Part shown: in pieces, positions 7,023-31,715 of the stretch
How positions within the stretch are numbered: position 1 is the first letter of the stretch
Layout of the letters: the number at the start of each line of letters is the position of its first letter
NCBI GenBank assembly: GCA_902812455.1
Contig: CADDZH010000045.1
Location: forward strand, 1-39,089
Source of the DNA: Chloroflexota bacterium
Lineage (GTDB): Bacteria > Chloroflexota > Ktedonobacteria > Ktedonobacterales > Ktedonobacteraceae
DNA length: 39,089 nucleotides
Direction: 5' to 3'
Notes under the pieces: model-generated
The model's input: the letters and a program-made list of their open reading frames with translations, nothing else
Told to the model about the DNA's origin: nothing
Databases searched by the model: none
Made by a program: the position numbers and the translations under genes

Positions 7023-7868
7023 TTACCCCGTGCGGGTGTCAAAGTTCATCAGGCTACCGCTGCTCTTCTTGAGCAAAACCTCGCGTACCTCTGGGGGGGC
7101 CTCGAGCTTCCCCACCAGGTTAAACTGCCCAATAGCCTGGTCTGCCAGCTCCGGGCTGATATCATCATCAAAATGACACACTCCTGTCACATTGATATCC
7201 AGCCGTCTTCCTTCCGCTACAGCCTTTTCCAGGTCTTGACGGCTATAGCTGACCGATCCAACTACCCAGGCATTCTTTGTCGCTATAGCGCCTCGCGGCT
7301 GCGGCATATCCTGCGGTGATGGTTGGGGATAGCCAACTATAAACAAGGCTGTCGATTGCTCCCCTTCAATGCCACGCCGGTTTTCATAAGGCTTGAGCAT
7401 ATCAATAAGTTGCTTAGCAAGCGCCTTATGCTCCTCCTCTGTCACATACAGGCGCACAGAACCCAAAATTAGAAAGGACTTCTCAGCTTTTTTTTCTTCC
7501 AGAGCAGTACGAAACGCGCGCTGGAAATCTTCCTTCATCTGATCGAGCCATGCGCTGGTAGCCGCCAGGGATTCATTCGAGGGCGCCGACATGAATAAAT
7601 CGTTGGAGACTGAGATATCCCTGGCAATGGGCTGGTAGTACTTTTCAAGAATGCCACCTTTCTCGCGCGTCTCAACCAGTTGCAACAGGCCAACTTTCTC
7701 CAGCTCCCGCACATGGTAGTGAACCTTTGCTGGCGCTATGCCCAGGGCTTCTCCCAACTGTGTGACCGTCATGGGATGCTCCTGCAACATGTCGATGATA
7801 CGCAGGCGTAGCACATCAGCTATCGCTCGCAACTGCTCCAGGTTGTTGATTTCGTACCGTTCTAGCAT
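7023..7868 (-). CDS. ArsR-type winged-helix transcriptional regulator
   Basis: The N-terminal 80 residues form an ArsR/HTH_20-like winged helix: LEQLRAIADVLRLRIIDMLQ, then the recognition-helix region TVTQLGEALGIAPAKVHYHV and a wing with LVETREKGGILEKYYQP. The remaining 200 residues are an uncharacterised ligand or dimerisation region, much longer than in classic metal-sensing ArsR. No CxC metal motif is present. The start at 7868 (MLERYE) was preferred because GAAGGA lies just upstream; an ATG at 7931 in the same frame would add 21 residues and use up the divergent promoter interval. It probably controls the downstream MFS and peptidase genes and perhaps the divergent kinase gene. Confidence 0.85.
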   Translation of the reverse strand: MLERYEINNLEQLRAIADVLRLRIIDMLQEHPMTVTQLGEALGIAPAKVHYHVRELEKVGLLQLVETREKGGILEKYYQPIARDISVSNDLFMSAPSNESLAATSAWLDQMKEDFQRAFRTALEEKKAEKSFLILGSVRLYVTEEEHKALAKQLIDMLKPYENRRGIEGEQSTALFIVGYPQPSPQDMPQPRGAIATKNAWVVGSVSYSRQDLEKAVAEGRRLDINVTGVCHFDDDISPELADQAIGQFNLVGKLEAPPEVREVLLKKSSGSLMNFDTRTG

Positions 7869-8011
7869 CAAATATCCTTCATCGATAAAATTTTTTTGAA
7901 CATATAAGAAGAATAAATCATTCAATTTCATTTGTCAAGGTGCTTTCAAATCCCCCTGCTTTCCGTGTAATATATGTATGCCACATTGATTACTTTGGAG
8001 AGGAGAACTAT

Positions 8012-9070
8012 GTGCTAACAGAGCCTGAACTCGATCCCATTGACATCTCGCGTACTGGCGGTACTTCTAGAAATATGGATAATGACCGGGTACAGCGTGT
8101 GCTCTGTGAGACCATCCCCGAATTGAAAGAGAAGCGCTGGCACCTGCTCTCCTGCCAGGTGATCGAAGCGCGGCAGCACCGGCAAAAGCAACTTGTCTTC
8201 TGCCACATCTCTTACCGGGATGAAAAAGGGAAATGTGCGAAGGATGTAGAGCTTGTCGTAAAGTTCTACGGAGATCATGGAAGGGATAGCGGTTATGAGG
8301 CGTTGCAACAATTGCGGCAGGCCGGTTTCCAGCAGCCGTCCAGGTATCGCGTGCCGCGCCCTTATGGATACGCGCCCGGAGCCGGGATATTGATACAGGA
8401 GAGGGTAAAGGGAAGAAGCTGGCTCAAGCTCCTGCTTGATTCGCAGCAGAGCCAGCAACGAGCTGCCGCTCAAGCTGCAAGCTGGCTGGTGCGCCTTCAA
8501 CAAAGCTCTCTCCATATCCCTCTCATGGAGAATGAATCTATGAGCCGTGCCAGCGTTGCGACACTGAGGCGCCAGGCACAGGAGCTTGCGACAGCTTTCC
8601 CTTCTATCGCCGGGCGGCTAGAGAGCCTCAGCGAACAACTGCTGGCCAGTAGACTTTCGGAGCAGCTTCCACTCGTTGCTTCGCATGGCGACTATCACCC
8701 AGGCAATGTCTTTCTTGCTGGCACTACCATAACAGTCATTGACTTTGACGCCTTCGGGCTGCGTGATGCCGCCTTTGATGCTGGCTACTGCATTGCTCAG
8801 TTATTGAGCATGTCGTATTTCCACACGGGATATCTCGCCCCTGGCGTGCAGGCCGCGGCTCTCTTCTGGCGTACTTATGAGAAGCAGGGCGGTCAGGCAG
8901 CATGGCCAGCGGTCGCAGCGCGAGTCGCATCGACGCTGCTGCAGGTATTGCACTATACCCTCTATGCGATGGGGTCTGGGCGCCGTGATATACTCCCCTG
9001 GTGGCTGGATCTGATCGAACAGTGGCTCGCTAGCCAGGGACCGGCAACGCTTGAAAGTTTCAATCATTAA
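8012..9070 (+). CDS. Aminoglycoside phosphotransferase (APH) family kinase-like protein
   Basis: Protein-kinase-fold small-molecule phosphotransferase of about 352 residues. The catalytic loop HGDYHPGNVF and the metal-binding IDFDAFGLRDAAFDAGY match the APH/choline kinase family. Upstream, VELVVKFYGD carries the ATP-binding Lys and GILIQERVKG resembles the hinge. A GTG at 8012 is preferred as start because GGAGAGGAG lies six bases before it; a GTG at 7940 in the same frame has no such site. The substrate is unknown; the family includes antibiotic kinases and metabolic kinases. It is divergent from the ArsR-type regulator and not clearly in an operon with the GH57 gene 180 bases downstream, because a palindromic repeat element lies between them. 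Confidence 0.82.
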   Translation: MLTEPELDPIDISRTGGTSRNMDNDRVQRVLCETIPELKEKRWHLLSCQVIEARQHRQKQLVFCHISYRDEKGKCAKDVELVVKFYGDHGRDSGYEALQQLRQAGFQQPSRYRVPRPYGYAPGAGILIQERVKGRSWLKLLLDSQQSQQRAAAQAASWLVRLQQSSLHIPLMENESMSRASVATLRRQAQELATAFPSIAGRLESLSEQLLASRLSEQLPLVASHGDYHPGNVFLAGTTITVIDFDAFGLRDAAFDAGYCIAQLLSMSYFHTGYLAPGVQAAALFWRTYEKQGGQAAWPAVAARVASTLLQVLHYTLYAMGSGRRDILPWWLDLIEQWLASQGPATLESFNH

Positions 9071-9246
9071 AAGCAAGGTTCAAAAATGGACGAAAGACCT
9101 TGACAGTGTACATAGTCGCATCATGTTATCCTGAGCGAAGCGAAGGATCTCGCTTGATGTGCATCGGATGTTTCGCTTCGCTCAACATGACATTACCGGA
9201 CTTTGCTGGTAACTGAGGAATTGTCACGTTCATTTGAACCTTGCTT
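9071..9246. repeat. 176-bp palindromic element with 14-bp terminal inverted repeats
   Basis: The ends are exact inverted repeats: AAGCAAGGTTCAAA at 9071-9084 and its complement at 9233-9246. Inside, two facing copies of the CCTGAGCGAAGCGAAGGATC-type repeat (about 9125-9151 and 9168-9192) form an inner inverted pair. No coding potential is seen. The structure resembles a MITE or a double REP/BIME. Related single copies lie at about 33870-33923 and 36819-36873. Confidence 0.75.
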
Positions 9247-24000: not shown

Positions 24001-25020
24001 TCATAAGCTTTGACTTAACTCCCTTGCCTTTTGTTCGGCTGGAGCAATGACTTTCTCTTTAAGTGATTGGAGCAGACTCATCTCATCAGTATAATGGTAG
24101 ACGGGAAGAACCCAGGGAAACCTCGTGAAATGTTCAAACATACCATATTCTTGCTGCGAACTGAGTATCAGTGGCTGAACCGGTACTGATGGAAGATTTG
24201 GAACGATCCTCATTAATTCTTGAGGAATGCTTTTCGCATCAGTGATATCAGCTATCACAAACCGCGCCATATGAGCGAGTGTAGATACCGTCTCCGTGAT
24301 ATCACGGCTGGCCAGTTTCTCAAAATCAAATAACACAGGGGTATAGTTACGTGTATGAAGCTCGTCCCTTATAGCATCTAAAACTGCCTTCCGCCCAGGA
24401 GTGAAGCGGCCTAAGATCAACACCACTTTGGAGATGATGGTGTCAATGACTTCGCGGATTTCCTGATTATTCAGTAAGAGAAAGATGAACTGAGCTACCT
24501 TTAAATTATCGACAGTGATGGATGGGCCATAGGGAGTGATAATTAAATTCTCTTGTTGTGCCTCCTGAAGGTTGATATTCCAGACAGAAATTCCGTAGAT
24601 GCGACAATTGGCTAATGTTGCGTTTGTAAAGTCGGTTGCGACTAGTGTAGCAAAGCTAAGGTCACACCCACTAAGTTTAGCATCATGGAGAGTGGTTTGG
24701 ATAAACCTGGTTTCTCTAAGGTTGGTGTTGATGAGGTATGCTCCTTTGAGATAGGCTCCACTAAGGTCGGCTCCGCTCACGTTAGCTCTTCTAATATGCG
24801 CTCCACTGAGGATTGCTCCACCAAGATCAACTCCCATTAGATCGGTTTCATTGAAATATGCCTCAATGAGATTTGCCATCTTAAGGTTGGCACCTCTTAG
24901 CTTGGTGTTGGATAGATCCGCATAACTCAAGTCTGGAAGTATATCTGAATGCTCTTGCCTCCATCGGTTCCAGACCTCTACCCCTTGTTTAAGTATATCG
25001 AGATGTTCCTGGTTTGCCAT
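24001..25020 (-). CDS. Pentapeptide-repeat protein with unrecognised C-terminal alpha/beta domain
   Basis: A 339-residue protein. The first 22 residues (MANQEHLDILKQG..WNRWR) are almost identical to the adjacent upstream protein. Residues about 28-150 are pentapeptide repeats (A(D/N)LSx: SYADLSNTKLRGANLKMANL and so on), forming a right-handed quadrilateral beta-helix. Residues about 185-330 are a separate domain with VVLILGRFTPGRKAVLDAIR, then VLFDFE, and ARFVIADITDAKSIPQEL, which looks like a Rossmann-type alpha/beta fold, possibly TIR-like or nucleoside deoxyribosyltransferase-like; no family name is certain. The start follows the TIR gene stop by six bases, with AGGAGGG upstream, so both form one operon. 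No signal peptide is seen. Confidence 0.85.
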   Translation of the reverse strand: MANQEHLDILKQGVEVWNRWRQEHSDILPDLSYADLSNTKLRGANLKMANLIEAYFNETDLMGVDLGGAILSGAHIRRANVSGADLSGAYLKGAYLINTNLRETRFIQTTLHDAKLSGCDLSFATLVATDFTNATLANCRIYGISVWNINLQEAQQENLIITPYGPSITVDNLKVAQFIFLLLNNQEIREVIDTIISKVVLILGRFTPGRKAVLDAIRDELHTRNYTPVLFDFEKLASRDITETVSTLAHMARFVIADITDAKSIPQELMRIVPNLPSVPVQPLILSSQQEYGMFEHFTRFPWVLPVYHYTDEMSLLQSLKEKVIAPAEQKARELSQSL

Positions 25021-25026
25021 ACTAAG

Positions 25027-26034
25027 TTACCCTCCTGCCTTCAAAGCGCGGAGCAACCGACTGAACGCCTTTTGATAGTCGTCGTGGTTTTTCCAATGTG
25101 TGAAGTCCCCAATATGCCGAGTCCGCCGGATATCATCGGCCCATTCTGCCTCGCACTGCATCACTGCATCGTCCAAACGGATAGGATACAAGACATTTGG
25201 TACTCCTTCTGGCTCTTTATTCAGTGCTTTTTCCACCTCATAGGCTACCCAGTTGCTGGCAATTGAATGCTCTGAGAGCACGAGCAAGAGCTTATCATAG
25301 AGGCGAATAGACTCTTCAATGCGAGGTCGGATTTTATCGCCGATGTTCATATCTTCAGAAGCAAACCAGCAGCGCACACCCTGTTCTTGCAAATCGGCAT
25401 GAAGACGACGAGCAAAGTCCTCGTCTTTGCTGGAATAGCTAATAAAACAACTATGGTAGTCAAATGGTTTCCCTACAAGGGAATGCATAATCTCGATAAA
25501 GTTTTCTGGTACACCAATCCCTCGCAAGAATACTTTAGGAATATTACCATGAGAGCGATAAACAGTGCTCACACTGAGGACAGAGGGACCATGATGCATC
25601 ACTGTTTCAAGTCCTTTGGCCTGACTCAAGTCAGTATTTTCAAAGATAGTGCGAGCTAGCATTGCTCCACTTAGGTTGGTTTCACTCAAATCCGTTCTGT
25701 TAAAATTAGCATCGATAAGAATAGCTTCACTAAGATCAGCTTCAGTGAGGTCTGCTCCATATAGGTTAGCTTCACTAAGATTGGCAAATTGTAGATTGGT
25801 ACCGATGAGATAAGCATCACTAAGATCAGCTTTGTAAAAGCTAGAAAAACGTAAATCAGAAAAGCTAAAATCAACATCATTAAGGTCGGCATCACTAAGA
25901 TCAATATTAAATAGATTATTATGACTGAGATCGGCACTACTGAGAACAGGGCGAATATTTGCCTGCTCTTTTCTCCATCGGTTCCAGGCCCTTTTCCCTT
26001 GTTTAAGAATATCGAGATGTTCCTGGTTTGCCAT
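25027..26034 (-). CDS. Pentapeptide-repeat protein with C-terminal TIR domain
   Basis: A 335-residue protein. N-terminal module MANQEHLDILKQG..WNRWR; pentapeptide repeats about residues 30-140 (SDADLNDVDFSFSDLRFSSF and others); linker; TIR domain about 195-330. The TIR motifs are SCFISYSSKDEDFARRLHAD (box 1), VRCWFASEDMNIGDKI (BB loop) and SNWVAYEVEKAL, where Glu266 is at the position of the NAD-hydrolase catalytic Glu. Bacterial TIR proteins typically cleave NAD+ or make cyclic-ADP-ribose signals in anti-phage defence; that role is inferred here. GGAGGT five bases before the ATG is an ideal ribosome site, and a TATAAT lies 45 bases upstream. The downstream partner shares the N-terminal and repeat modules. 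Confidence 0.92.
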   Translation of the reverse strand: MANQEHLDILKQGKRAWNRWRKEQANIRPVLSSADLSHNNLFNIDLSDADLNDVDFSFSDLRFSSFYKADLSDAYLIGTNLQFANLSEANLYGADLTEADLSEAILIDANFNRTDLSETNLSGAMLARTIFENTDLSQAKGLETVMHHGPSVLSVSTVYRSHGNIPKVFLRGIGVPENFIEIMHSLVGKPFDYHSCFISYSSKDEDFARRLHADLQEQGVRCWFASEDMNIGDKIRPRIEESIRLYDKLLLVLSEHSIASNWVAYEVEKALNKEPEGVPNVLYPIRLDDAVMQCEAEWADDIRRTRHIGDFTHWKNHDDYQKAFSRLLRALKAGG

Positions 26035-26410: not shown

Positions 26411-26581
26411 CTAGATTTTTTTTGAACCATTAGGCTGTTGAGGAGAGTGAACCTTAGCCTGACGAGCTAGGTAAATTGCCAGAGGAATACTGACGAGCGA
26501 GCAAATGCTGCCAATGCCACCCAAAATAGGGTTGCCCAGCAGTTGCAATATGAACTGTGTTACGTCATACAATTCCTGCAT
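26411..26581 (-). CDS. 56-residue single-pass membrane protein in the HEPN/TIR island
   Basis: An uninterrupted 57-codon frame begins MQELYDVTQFILQLLGNP. One strong hydrophobic segment follows (GGIGSICSLVSIPLAIYLA, about residues 22-40), then a short basic/polar tail ending NGSKKI. AAAGGATGAG lies five bases before the ATG. It lies 130 bases downstream of the DUF5677-like gene on the same strand and is followed by a clear terminator, both supporting a real gene. No family was recognised. By position and size it could be a membrane effector or inhibitor of the island, which is inference. Confidence 0.65.
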   Translation of the reverse strand: MQELYDVTQFILQLLGNPILGGIGSICSLVSIPLAIYLARQAKVHSPQQPNGSKKI

Positions 26582-26710
26582 GGCTACTCATCCTTTGCAA
26601 ACACTATTGCTCGTTACCGTCATTATAATGCTGGATGAAGCATTTTAGCAAGTCAGGACGCAGAAGGCTTTTTTACGGAGTCCGGCTTTTATAGGCACTT
26701 GAGAGGTGTA

Positions 26711-27610
26711 CTATTCATCTTTGGATAAGTGTGCTGTAAATATCGTTTGCCATATTTCATCAATCGCTTGTTTTGTAGCCTCCTGTATATCAGACTCATC
26801 CATGAATATTCTGGCTATGCGTGTAACTGCTGTGGTCGTGGCTATTAAACTGAGCTTCAGATCACTCTCACTTGTTGTACGGTAGAGTTGATCGAATAAG
26901 AAATCGTGTATGTCAGTTGGTGAGAAGTGGTTCTTCCTGTTTCCTTGAATATAGGTTTGTATGAGTATTCCTTGCTCCTGAGCATTTATAACTCCATCAT
27001 TGACCAACGCTTCGATCATGCCTTCGGTATCTAACCCAGCCCATGCTTTTCGTGTCTGCTCGCTCATATCTGGATATCTTCTTCTAAACTCTTCTTCGAT
27101 TTCATGTTCTGTTTCCTCATCTAACTTGCCATGGGACCTTAAAAACTCAGTGAGATCATCCCAGGCCCTTTTTCTGGTTCTGCTACTAGTGTCAAGGAAC
27201 TGCCGCTTTACTCTGTCGTAATCTTTATCGACGGTTATCTTCAACACTTGATCTATCGATGCACCAATTGCTTCAAGAAAATCTATATCGTGCTTGGCTT
27301 CAACTGCTTTATAGTCGAAGAACTTCTGTGTTTGTGACTCTTTCCCTTTGAAGAGCATATATTCAAGGCTGATAAAATCTTCAAGTACTCTTCTGCACAG
27401 GTCCATACAACTATTGCCAAACGCGATCCGCATCTCTGGCTGACTGTATTCGGCTAAATACACCATAGTAAAGAGAGTCAGGTAGTCACGCCTGAAAGTC
27501 CCTTCAACTACTCGTGCGAACTGAGATTTATATGTGTTCGGTCCCGAAGCTACTTGGCGCGTCGCGTTAAGGAGCTTCTTCGCTAATGCTATGATGCTGT
27601 TTAATTTCAT
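26711..27610 (-). CDS. Helical protein resembling DUF5677
   Basis: A 299-residue, all-helical, highly charged protein from ATG 27610 (MKLNSIIALAKKLLN). The segment NSCMDLCRRVLEDFISLEYM, then QKFFDYKAVEAKHDIDFL, resembles DUF5677 proteins (R-x4-E ... +FxDY), a family found near other HEPN-like proteins; this assignment is tentative. No Rx4H motif was found in it. A TTG at 27724 in the same frame overlaps the stop of the upstream HEPN gene and would add 38 residues; it would give translational coupling, but the added part looks non-homologous. TTGCCC-N17-TATACT just before 27610 could give a nearly leaderless transcript. The gene is AT-rich compared with the flanks. Confidence 0.65.
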   Translation of the reverse strand: MKLNSIIALAKKLLNATRQVASGPNTYKSQFARVVEGTFRRDYLTLFTMVYLAEYSQPEMRIAFGNSCMDLCRRVLEDFISLEYMLFKGKESQTQKFFDYKAVEAKHDIDFLEAIGASIDQVLKITVDKDYDRVKRQFLDTSSRTRKRAWDDLTEFLRSHGKLDEETEHEIEEEFRRRYPDMSEQTRKAWAGLDTEGMIEALVNDGVINAQEQGILIQTYIQGNRKNHFSPTDIHDFLFDQLYRTTSESDLKLSLIATTTAVTRIARIFMDESDIQEATKQAIDEIWQTIFTAHLSKDE

Positions 27611-27720
27611 GGTTATCAAGTATAATACTGGTTCTGTCAGGGGGCAAGCGAAGTAGTACTGCAAGGCCGAGACGCACAAATTATCTCGGTCGGCATCTGT
27701 CTTATAGAAGGGGTACAAGC

Positions 27721-28278
27721 TCAATTAGGCTTGGGAGCTTCCGAGGTTTTCAGAAGCTCTATTAAATGGCTTACGACAATCATTGGGCCAGAATAAACTT
27801 CTAGCGTTTCTATCTCTTCGTGGTCTAAGTGGACAAAATCAGGATTGGCTGCCAATTCAACCTCTCGTATCCACCAACTATCTACCTTCGCCAGAATTTC
27901 TTGCATCTTTTCAAGATCGCTAACAGTTATATTGATGTCATCGTCTACTAAAAACTCTGGCAATTGGTGAGCTATTTTATTGCGAAGCTCTCTGAGGCTT
28001 ACTATCGTTTGAATATCTTCAGTTGTGATTGCCTCTACTTTGTGGAGCCATTTGCATGATGCAAGGAAAATGCTCTTATCCAATGAGAGAACTTCACCTG
28101 CATACTGCCTCTGCATTGCTGCGTTCTCGTAACCTGCCGCAACAAAGTAAAACTTTTCAATCTCTTCAATAATCGAGGATTTGAGCAATTCATAGGCTAT
28201 CAAATAAATAGCAGCAGCCATAAGGGCGGACTTTGTGAGTTCAGGAGACAACAGTTTGTTATAGGATTTTTTATCCAT
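27721..28278 (-). CDS. HEPN-motif protein, 185 residues
   Basis: An all-helical protein with N-terminal helices (SALMAAAIYLIAYELLKSSI) and the motif LRELRNKIAHQLPEF, where Arg99-Asn100 and His104 form the RNxxxH signature of HEPN ribonucleases or HEPN-like antitoxin partners. No other domain is seen. It lies between the DUF4145 gene (45 bases upstream) and the DUF5677-like gene, all on one strand, and is probably in one transcript driven from 29042-29070. No strong ribosome site precedes the ATG. RNase activity is inferred from the motif only; many HEPN proteins are inactive scaffolds. Confidence 0.7.
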   Translation of the reverse strand: MDKKSYNKLLSPELTKSALMAAAIYLIAYELLKSSIIEEIEKFYFVAAGYENAAMQRQYAGEVLSLDKSIFLASCKWLHKVEAITTEDIQTIVSLRELRNKIAHQLPEFLVDDDINITVSDLEKMQEILAKVDSWWIREVELAANPDFVHLDHEEIETLEVYSGPMIVVSHLIELLKTSEAPKPN

Positions 28279-28323
28279 AGGTAAAGAATTTGCCTTTCTC
28301 GGTAACGTGGAAGCCAGTACTTG

Positions 28324-28989
28324 CTAACGCTCTAGCCTTGCTCGTAAAGTTTCGATTTTTGCTGGTGCCACGTAGAGATACTCTAGAATGGCTTCGAGAA
28401 AGCCTATGATGATCGGCACATCCTCTTCGGTTATCTCATCATCATCTGCATGAGCGCCCAGGTTGCGAAGCTGCTTTAGTTGGTTAGCCATCTCAGCTAC
28501 GGTTTTTGGCATACGATCTGAGTTAGCAAGGATTTTCAGGCGATCTGCTAATCTTCCAGGTTTGATCTGTTCATAATTGCACACAGCTTCCAGTGTTCTC
28601 CCCGCGGCTACAGCACAGGCATTCGGCTCAATATCTTGTGCCTTGAGTGCGGCTCTGAAAGCTTTCTCAATTGACTCAGGTAGGTTGGTTAACGGCGTCT
28701 TACCCGGGTAAAGTAGTGTCCGTTTTGCAGTAGTGGGAAACCACTCAAATACCATAGTTGTCTTCGAGTTGCTATCAGGCAGCGTTTGCTCAAGTTGATA
28801 GCTCTCTATAACCTCTTCCAAGGTAGGTTTATGACAATTACTGCATTCCCAAATTTGCCATGTTGTAAGGTTTTGTGTCTCTATATCGGTTTCTCCTACC
28901 CTTGCCCCATATTGAGTTCCCTTTCCTTGCTCTTGAAAAACTGCTTGCTTACTGCAATGACCACACAGCATCGCTCTTGTGTCTGACAT
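28324..28989 (-). CDS. DUF4145 protein: zinc ribbon plus HEPN-like domain
   Basis: A 221-residue protein. Four Cys (Cys9, Cys12, Cys49, Cys52 in CGHC and CSNC) form a probable zinc ribbon. The C-terminal DUF4145 domain (about residues 110-205) ends in LKQLRNLGAHADDDEITEED, with Arg175 and His180 of the RNxxxH motif. DUF4145 occurs as a stand-alone protein and fused to restriction enzymes in defence loci. GGGGA nine bases before ATG 28989 fixes the start; the far ATG at 29007 is less likely. A TTGACA-N17-TAGTAT promoter lies just upstream, making this the first gene of the HEPN/DUF5677 transcript. Confidence 0.83.
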   Translation of the reverse strand: MSDTRAMLCGHCSKQAVFQEQGKGTQYGARVGETDIETQNLTTWQIWECSNCHKPTLEEVIESYQLEQTLPDSNSKTTMVFEWFPTTAKRTLLYPGKTPLTNLPESIEKAFRAALKAQDIEPNACAVAAGRTLEAVCNYEQIKPGRLADRLKILANSDRMPKTVAEMANQLKQLRNLGAHADDDEITEEDVPIIIGFLEAILEYLYVAPAKIETLRARLER

Positions 28990-29041
28990 ACCGATATTTC
29001 CCCACAATTATTAACCATCTCATCCTTTTGCTCCAGTGGAT

Positions 29042-29070
29042 ATACTACTCGTCACACAGGAGCCTGTCAA
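29042..29070 (-). promoter_or_regulatory. Sigma-70-type promoter for the DUF4145/HEPN/DUF5677 transcript
   Basis: On the minus strand a perfect TTGACA (complement at 29065-29070), a 17-base spacer and TAGTAT (complement at 29042-29047). Predicted start near 29035, giving a leader of about 45 bases to the DUF4145 start codon. Confidence 0.7.
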
Positions 29071-29162
29071 TGGTCGTAAAAGTGTTTAGAGGTTCGCACA
29101 ATTTATGGTGTCCGGGGTGAAGCGGGATTCTAAAACTTGTTCATACTGAAAGGCCAGATCAG

Positions 29163-30479
29163 TTATTGCTTACCCTTGCTTGCAGTAAGAGAAGCTAAAA
29201 TAATCCTGTTAACCAGTGCCTTGACTTGCTTGATTTCTTGCACCGACGGCTCATCTGCTTTCTTTCCGTGCTCTATTGCATTTCTTATTGTTCTGAATTT
29301 CTCTAACAGGTCATTCTCATGTTTACTTAGCACTATGCCGATATTCTTAAGATGCTGTTTAAATCTCTCCAATAAGGCTCCATCATTGTGCCTTTTGATT
29401 GCACTCCGAACAAAATGACGTTCTTGCTCGTCGGTCAGGTTAGCTATAGCACGAGATAATAAGTCAGCAAGCTGCTCTTTGTTATAGCTTTTCGGCAACT
29501 TGACACCCGTTGACAATAATTCAATGACCTGCCAAAGGCCAAGTGTAACCACATAATAATCTTCACTGTCTCTAAATCTGTTCCATACTAGTAAAGGTAG
29601 CTGGAAGTTCTCACTCGCAGCCATAACAGATGCGATATCTAACTTGATGGTAGGCTTTAGTTTGGTCTGAGTTGGCTTGTATGAAGAAATATCTCTTAAC
29701 CATGCGCTAGGCTGGTTAAGCATTATGAGCAGAATATAGTTTTGACGCTTCAGGTTAATTGTTGCGTCTACCCTTTCCCATTCAATAAAGTTTCCTCCGA
29801 ATTGGGAGTAGCTATACTGTAACAGGCTACTATAGGCAGATAAAAATACATCTGCCTTTTCTATTGCTATGTCTTCAGCTTCGGCAAAATGGGCAGCTTT
29901 GAAACGAAAAGAAGTCCATCCATCTGCGTCAAGAAATCTCTGCCATAATTCGTTTTTCTCATTCTTGGGTAATTTATCCTGCAAACTCTTAACACCCGTA
30001 AGTGAGTGCAGTTGAACGCCATTGACCATTTCATCCTGTTCGATAAGCAAGCCTTTAAAAGGCGCAAAAGCCATCATTTCCTTAATAGAGTTATCTAATC
30101 CTGGTATGATAATATGATCTTGAGGAAAGCCCGCCTGTCGCGCTAAGGAATAGACGACTTCTCGATGATCGACACCTAGCACAGTTAAAGACTTAACGCC
30201 TGTTTCAGTAAGCTCTAGGCCGTTATCAAGCATTATTACCACTTGATCGTTTGGTTCGCTCTTTATCGAAACTATGTTTCCTCGATAAAGAAGGCGTTTC
30301 TGACTGACCGAGTTAATCACTACCTCATCCAGATAATTTATGGCTCCAAGTTGAAGAATATCGTTTTTATCAAAGCGGATCGTGGCAGTAGTTGAAGCAT
30401 TTATTTTGCTAGTAATTGAGCAACCACGACATGATAATGATGCCACACTGCCAAAAATCACTTCTATCTCACCGATCAT
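29163..30479 (-). CDS. 438-residue protein with C-terminal HEPN-like region
   Basis: The N-terminal half (to about 250) is beta-rich, with a Cys pair in SLSCRGCSITSK and long stretches such as RGNIVSIKSEPNDQVVIMLD. The C-terminal part (about 280-438) is helical and ends in EKFRTIRNAIEHGKK, where Arg399 and His404 form the RNxxxH motif. This order (beta-rich sensor, then C-terminal HEPN) recalls ApeA-type abortive-infection proteins, but membership is not established. It lies 170 bases upstream of the DUF4145 gene on the same strand, with its own start preceded by GGAGAAG. Together with the next two genes it makes three HEPN-motif proteins in a row. Confidence 0.75.
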   Translation of the reverse strand: MIGEIEVIFGSVASLSCRGCSITSKINASTTATIRFDKNDILQLGAINYLDEVVINSVSQKRLLYRGNIVSIKSEPNDQVVIMLDNGLELTETGVKSLTVLGVDHREVVYSLARQAGFPQDHIIIPGLDNSIKEMMAFAPFKGLLIEQDEMVNGVQLHSLTGVKSLQDKLPKNEKNELWQRFLDADGWTSFRFKAAHFAEAEDIAIEKADVFLSAYSSLLQYSYSQFGGNFIEWERVDATINLKRQNYILLIMLNQPSAWLRDISSYKPTQTKLKPTIKLDIASVMAASENFQLPLLVWNRFRDSEDYYVVTLGLWQVIELLSTGVKLPKSYNKEQLADLLSRAIANLTDEQERHFVRSAIKRHNDGALLERFKQHLKNIGIVLSKHENDLLEKFRTIRNAIEHGKKADEPSVQEIKQVKALVNRIILASLTASKGKQ

Positions 30480-31288: not shown

Positions 31289-31692
31289 AACTTGTTTTCC
31301 CTACCCTTTCTACGAATAGCGTATTCACGTCGTGGTTATTTAGCCCCGTTTGTTTAATTTCATCCGTATTGACCGTCATCATACGAGACGCTATTAAGCT
31401 TATAGGGTAACATTGGTGGTACTCTATGAAGGAATTAAGAAGCAGAATAGTTCGTTTGAGGGGTGACAAGAGATCAGTTCATGACAGAGAGCGGCTGCTC
31501 TAATCAGCAGATCAAAATCAGAGATCGGTTCGCTTCGCTGACATAGAAAATGAACGGATCTTGTGAAGCATTTCTGCTTCCCTATTCGCTCTTCTCCCCC
31601 GCCCTCTTCAATCTTGCATTACACCACCGTCTTGATATACTTGGCTACAGTTTCGCACCGCATCCGGTGGATAACGGCTCTTCAATCTTGCA
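31289..31692. other. Non-coding interval between the lipoprotein and GMC genes
   Basis: This interval holds an 11-base inverted repeat (31472-31482 against 31550-31560, one mismatch) around a GGTTCGCTTCGCTGACAT piece of the GCGAAGCGAA repeat family. It also holds the outer copy of a 38-bp direct repeat of the GMC gene end. No gene was recognised. Confidence 0.5.
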
Positions 31693-31715
31693 TTACACCA
31701 CCGTCTTGATATACT
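31604..31715. repeat. 38-bp direct repeat duplicating the 3' end of the GMC gene
   Basis: The stretch at 31604-31641 is identical to 31678-31715, with a period of 74 bases. The second copy includes the last codons (YIKTVV) and stop of the GMC oxidoreductase; the first lies downstream in non-coding DNA. It is a local duplication or slippage scar. Confidence 0.85.

Follow-up and report, generated by a model that had tools for sequence, protein, structure and literature searches.

Adjacent HEPN-like genes in an AT-rich, defence-like island of a Chloroflexota bacterium: one module or several single genes?

HEPN RNases are frequent effectors of immunity, and many of them have no recognised trigger. 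The contig CADDZH010000045.1 of a Ktedonobacteria-type Chloroflexota bacterium (assembly GCA_902812455.1), whose whole length of 39,089 nucleotides is hereafter called the window, raises the question of what such genes do when they lie side by side: a 438-residue protein (g438), a DUF4145 protein (g227) and a 185-residue protein (g185), each carrying an RNxxxH motif, are encoded by adjacent minus-strand genes, followed by a DUF5677-like gene (g337) and a small open reading frame (ORF). The original prediction, made from the sequence alone, took them for one multi-gene RNA-targeting module. I found that the families are not seen together elsewhere, as far as this could be tested, and consider it reasonably probable that the cluster is an accessory, defence-like island in which several independent single-gene HEPN proteins have gathered beside TIR/pentapeptide genes.

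Three proteins of the cluster contain a conserved RNxxxH in HEPN or HEPN-like domains, and g337 contains a conserved GNxxNH. Among 32 proteins selected by me from the window ORFs for motif statistics (11,127 amino acids), RNxxxH was carried by four, g438, g227, g185 and PlsY, against 0.53 expected after shuffling the residues of each protein. The per-protein chances of the three cluster proteins were 0.0275, 0.0075 and 0.0045, and the PlsY motif, RNYGSH, is probably due to chance. The claim of three neighbouring RNxxxH genes in one orientation was borne out, and their motifs lie where they had been placed, with RNAIEH at residues 399-404 of g438, RNKIAH at residues 99-104 of g185, and RNLGAH at residues 175-180 of g227 if counted from ATG 28989, or 181-186 in the TTG-started ORF of 227 residues. 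The proposed HEPN or HEPN-like nature likewise held, the motifs being conserved across families and located within recognised or probable HEPN domains.

The strength of the domain assignment differed between the proteins. g227 matched DUF4145 (PF13643) with 57.1 bits (cut-off 23.1, E 1.9e-15) and RNxxxH present, and g438 matched HEPN_Apea (PF18739) with 27.6 bits, above the Pfam cut-off of 24.4. PF18739 was found at E<=1 for all 25 aligned g438 members, the window's own entry counted, several relatives scoring below the cut-off (e.g. P0070, P0071, P0075, P0106 and P0107). In g438 the conserved Rx4-6H ends a helix within an all-alpha bundle, and RNxx[ED]H occurs in 52 of the 62 listed database entries of its family, the other 10 being shorter and without that stretch. 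HEPN_RiboL-PSP was found for 13 of 18 aligned g185 members at E<=1 (best 7.2e-5), and RNxxAH occurs in 19 of the 22 entries of this family. The window's g185 scored 14.8 bits against a curated cut-off of 28.4, and is likely HEPN-like by sequence, though not filed in the family by that cut-off. In one g185 relative, P0128, a stretch of ~17 residues with the whole RNxxAH is absent.

Whether the genes travel together was then the central question, and the original prediction had made conserved co-occurrence in other genomes its test beforehand; in everything that was testable, homologues were never neighbours, the outcome that had been named as refuting the prediction. Protein searches returned at least 62 entries for g438, 48 for g337 and 22 for g185, the window's own included in each. 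When the longest contigs were compared (57, 46 and 20 sizes for the 62, 48 and 22 entries listed, respectively), the only size shared was the window's 39089, next to a near-coincidence of 68383 (g337) and 68393 (g438) that might stem from a single region assembled twice. Besides the window, contigs of at least 10 kb numbered 13 for g438, 4 for g337 and 3 for g185. Matches to g227 were found in 4 of 47 Ktedonobacteria genomes, three at 32-43% identity and a weak one at 21%, and the three better ones had no cluster partner within the 15.6-16 kb fetched. g185 occurred in 2 of 400 sampled Chloroflexota genomes, and neither relative had another cluster gene within the 16.5-17 kb fetched, where the neighbours were read as unrelated. 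Searches with g438, g337 and g185 each found none in the 47 Ktedonobacteria genomes, and those with g438 and g337 none in the 400 Chloroflexota genomes; such rarity in the genomes searched is consistent with accessory genes, and the matches of g227 and g185 suggest that the searches were sensitive. PF18739 and PF18862 searches returned nothing in the 47 Ktedonobacteria genomes nor in 14 control genomes, so that they show no absence.

Several points weigh against reading the genes as independent. The neighbour checks covered the genome loci that were fetched, whereas most relatives lie on metagenome contigs, and so they are not final. The 47-genome searches with g438, g337 and g185 had no positive-control genome for the same query, and a g438 relative of Reticulibacter mediterranei (P0102) used as query also found none in the 47 genomes, which evidently do not include this species, so the absence of the cluster families there is weaker than it looks. 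Finally, promoter-like sites numbered 18 in the region against 14.9 expected from shuffled sequence (standard deviation 4.1), which does not count as above the mean.

If the genes are independent, each HEPN protein would act alone as an RNase that is kept in check until infection or stress sets it off, whereupon its cleavage of RNA would halt the cell. The best candidate for an active effector would be g438, its strand-rich N-terminal part of ~300 residues serving as sensor, while g337 may be an RNase-dead relative or an adaptor. The positions of all features are collected in Table 1.

Table 1. Features of the HEPN cluster and the adjoining pentapeptide genes, with positions in the window.
Feature	Position	Strand	Remark
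Second pentapeptide-repeat protein	24001..25020	-	N-terminus similar to that of the TIR protein; profile search
Pentapeptide-repeat + TIR protein	25027..26034	-	PF13676 E 9.9e-25, PF00805 E 1.2e-25
Small ORF, 56 amino acids	26411..26581	-	ORF; hydrophobic stretch (by eye)
Promoter-like TTGCTA-18-TATAAT	26622..26651	-	upstream of small ORF; 10/12 matches
g337, DUF5677-like, all-helical	26711..27610	-	299 amino acids from ATG 27610; called ORF starts at TTG 27724; 299-residue database entry P0001
GNRKNH of g337	26927-26944	-	
Promoter-like TTGCCC-17-TATACT	27619..27647	-	just upstream of g337 ATG; 9/12 matches
g185, short HEPN-like, 185 amino acids	27721..28278	-	HEPN_RiboL-PSP matches among members
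RNKIAH of g185	27967-27984	-	
g227, CxxC...CxxC (zinc-ribbon-like) + DUF4145 HEPN	28324..29007	-	probable ATG start 28989; called ORF starts with TTG
RNLGAH of g227	28450-28467	-	
Promoter-like TTGACA-17-TAGTAT	29042..29070	-	upstream of g227; 10/12 matches
g438, 438 amino acids	29163..30479	-	ORF; N-terminal part of ~300 residues with many predicted strands, C-terminal ApeA-type HEPN
HEPN_Apea domain of g438, residues 314-424	29208..29540	-	PF18739
RNAIEH of g438	29268-29285	-	
g438 residues 1-90, predicted barrel	30210..30479	-	resembles first domain of phage tail hubs/VgrG; low-confidence model

Two known systems resemble g438. ApeA-NTD1 is described as a region of ~300 amino acids made mostly of beta strands (PMC3710099), and g438 likewise joins a long N-terminal region of many predicted strands to a C-terminal ApeA-type HEPN with RNxxxH; however, ApeA_NTD1 (PF18862) was not among the families found for the 25 aligned g438 members at E<=1. 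Tha, a tail-activated system of S. aureus prophages, is a single protein with a C-terminal HEPN and RNxxxH as in g438 (R265NSIMH270 in Tha-1), the HEPN being activated by minor tail proteins (PMC11087260). The N-terminal part of Tha has no discernible domain and was not confidently modelled, and the system is carried by prophages and overlapped by an antisense inhibitor (PMC11087260), whereas a scan of viral contigs with the g438 alignment, using two peptide patterns, gave 15 stretches of which none was confirmed, and phage records held nothing significant (best E = 4). The same alignment fitted a pattern in 24 stretches of genome contigs, again with none confirmed, and tblastn of g438 against plasmids found no match. 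Two relatives, P0102 on an 8.9 Mb contig and P0097 on a 445-kb contig, end 60-65 residues past WNRFRD without reaching the motif, and this ending ahead of the HEPN motif fits occasional loss or decay of a costly effector. A MauJ match of g438 was discarded as noise (16.9 bits against a cut-off of 28).

The fold predicted for the g438 N-terminus hints at a possible trigger. Injection-system hub or VgrG chains filled the first six rows when the g438 model was compared with the PDB by Foldseek, and three BFVD matches had E<=0.001. Of these, two carry the names phage protein D and 43-kDa tail protein, and the unnamed third has a root-mean-square deviation of 2.4 across 92 columns. With VIA, a second aligner, hub rows led for residues 1-90, although tied with flavin reductases, and the model itself is modest, with a predicted local distance difference test score (pLDDT) of 69 and a predicted template modelling score (pTM) of 0.43. 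The best alignment to XkdQ (the name that I take to apply to phiC2-type hubs) paired g438 residues 62-120 with XkdQ 66-123 in what seems to me the correct register, with a score not above the null. Using hhalign, g438 residues 1-160 reached 13.7 against gpD and 13.1 against XkdQ, where shuffled-column means were 13.1 and 13.8, and the unrelated g337 and g185 profiles reached 14.9 and 15.0. Comparisons with P2 gpD, Mu gp44, a phiC2 protein and two alignments, each comprising four phage proteins, gave no sequence-level proof of a hub relation. With fold matches and the Tha precedent on one side, and neither family profiles nor hhalign on the other lending sequence support, it is possible but unproven from the model that g438 is a Tha-like tail-sensing RNase; the full reading as a single-gene sensor-effector, whose tail-hub-like N-terminus detects the infecting phage's hub proteins or assembles together with them and thereby switches on the HEPN RNase, I regard as fairly unlikely. 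A bolder version, which I hold to be unlikely, has g438 founding a Ktedonobacteria-type single-gene immune lineage, in which a captured tail-hub-like domain would sense incoming tails and the fused ApeA-type HEPN would cut RNA on engagement, the neighbouring g337 being a catalytically dead HEPN-fold protein.

The module that was first proposed, in which HEPN-like partners (DUF5677, DUF4145) would do the sensing or restraining for active HEPN RNases as in a toxin-antitoxin or abortive infection (Abi) operon, draws its appeal from the arrangement of the genes: they share a strand, the gaps between them measure 45-173 nucleotides (ATG starts used), and the three motif proteins are adjacent. The lack of arginine in g337 would also suit a dead partner. 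Here, RNxxxH occurs in 0 of the 48 g337-family entries and GNxxNH in 42, and the latter may be a HEPN motif that lacks the arginine. The DUF5677-like label stood for the family, PF18928 being found at E<=1 for all 25 aligned members (own entry counted), and fell short for the window protein, which scored 24.0 bits against a cut-off of 27.1; its model is all-helical with a pLDDT of 89. DUF5677 is reportedly mentioned in a Salmonella domain survey. A CudC match of g337 was noise (22.8 bits against 218), and a scan of viral contigs with the g337 alignment gave 20 stretches and 0 confirmed. Against the module stand the unshared longest contigs of g438, g337 and g185, the partnerless relatives of g185 and g227, and promoter-like sites inside the cluster. 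These precede g227, g337 and the small ORF; none in the region is better than those of g227 and the small ORF. Five g337 relatives with entries extending upstream share Y-x-[VI]-[TA] right before the start, as a conserved -10 element near the start codon would give. On this evidence, a single multi-gene module appears quite improbable. Origin by duplication of one HEPN gene was rejected from the two pairs of profiles compared, since nothing notable aligned between g337 and g185, and the motif alone between g438 and g185; weak cross-matches linked g227 with HEPN_Apea (E 0.045) and a single relative of g438 with DUF4145 (E 0.11). Highly improbable is a third alternative, that g438 is an exported toxin whose VgrG/hub-like domain would mount its HEPN RNase on a contractile injection system. 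The best fold matches do include VgrG and extracellular contractile injection hubs, but inspection of the window ORFs by eye showed no injection-system gene, the VIA hub rows are mostly limited to residues 1-90, and the neighbourhood is defence-like instead.

DUF4145 (PF13643) counts among the HEPN families in PMC3710099, which also lists its fusions to zinc ribbons, and g227 has the same architecture with nothing unusual noted. Aligned with two Ktedonobacteria relatives, it keeps the cysteine pairs and NLGAH, which reads GNLGAH in one of them. A further DUF4145 relative (locus L014, G038:C2:1004000-1020000, at 7771-9232) has one in-frame TAG and diverges at the motif; the next protein is presumably a CARF-nuclease of the Can2/Card1 kind. 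g185 resembles RiboL-PSP or Csm6-type HEPN proteins in its motif region, but has only 185 amino acids, scores below the Pfam cut-off, and no other domain was found in it. The small ORF had no family match below E 0.05, and Rfam and tRNA scans gave no match.

The surroundings agree with an accessory island. The region had been described as AT-rich relative to its flanks, which is real (41-47% GC against 54-60% in adjoining 500-nucleotide windows), although the stretch is broader than the cluster and spans ~24.0-31.6 kb. It includes the two pentapeptide genes, whose starts share a 108-nucleotide repeat of 80% identity, which suggests a tandem duplication with different C-termini afterwards, TIR in one gene and a domain without assignment in the other. 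Among the matches listed, relatives of the TIR-pentapeptide protein occur in all 47 Ktedonobacteria genomes, and many of these matches extend over no more than the repeats; next to the best-scoring relative (L122, G005:C60, 4987-12372, 55% identity) lie genes that I take by eye for a D5-like primase, a Schlafen-like protein and a type I DNA methylase. An accessory, defence-like neighbourhood is supported by the AT-richness, the TIR gene and these presumed type I modification and Schlafen-like neighbours. At the AT-rich edge, the 3' end of a gene for a presumed GMC oxidoreductase contains a perfect 38-nucleotide direct repeat at 31604-31641 and 31678-31715, 74 nucleotides apart. This gene is 69-74% identical to those of three Ktedonobacter genomes and a Chloroflexi metagenome-assembled genome, which speaks for Ktedonobacteria kinship. 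Its synteny was tried and dropped as an empty-site test, as the four loci L001-L004 match only GMC, plus a presumed sigma factor in two.

Taken as a whole, the cluster resembles defence islands of an ordinary kind, and illustrates that HEPN genes lying adjacent in an AT-rich island need not form a module. The part most deserving follow-up is g438 with its possible tail-hub-like sensor: if the hub-like N-terminus is true, a trigger would have been suggested from structure alone, and the sensing of tails by HEPN proteins, of which Tha is the demonstrated case, would become testable in a second protein family.

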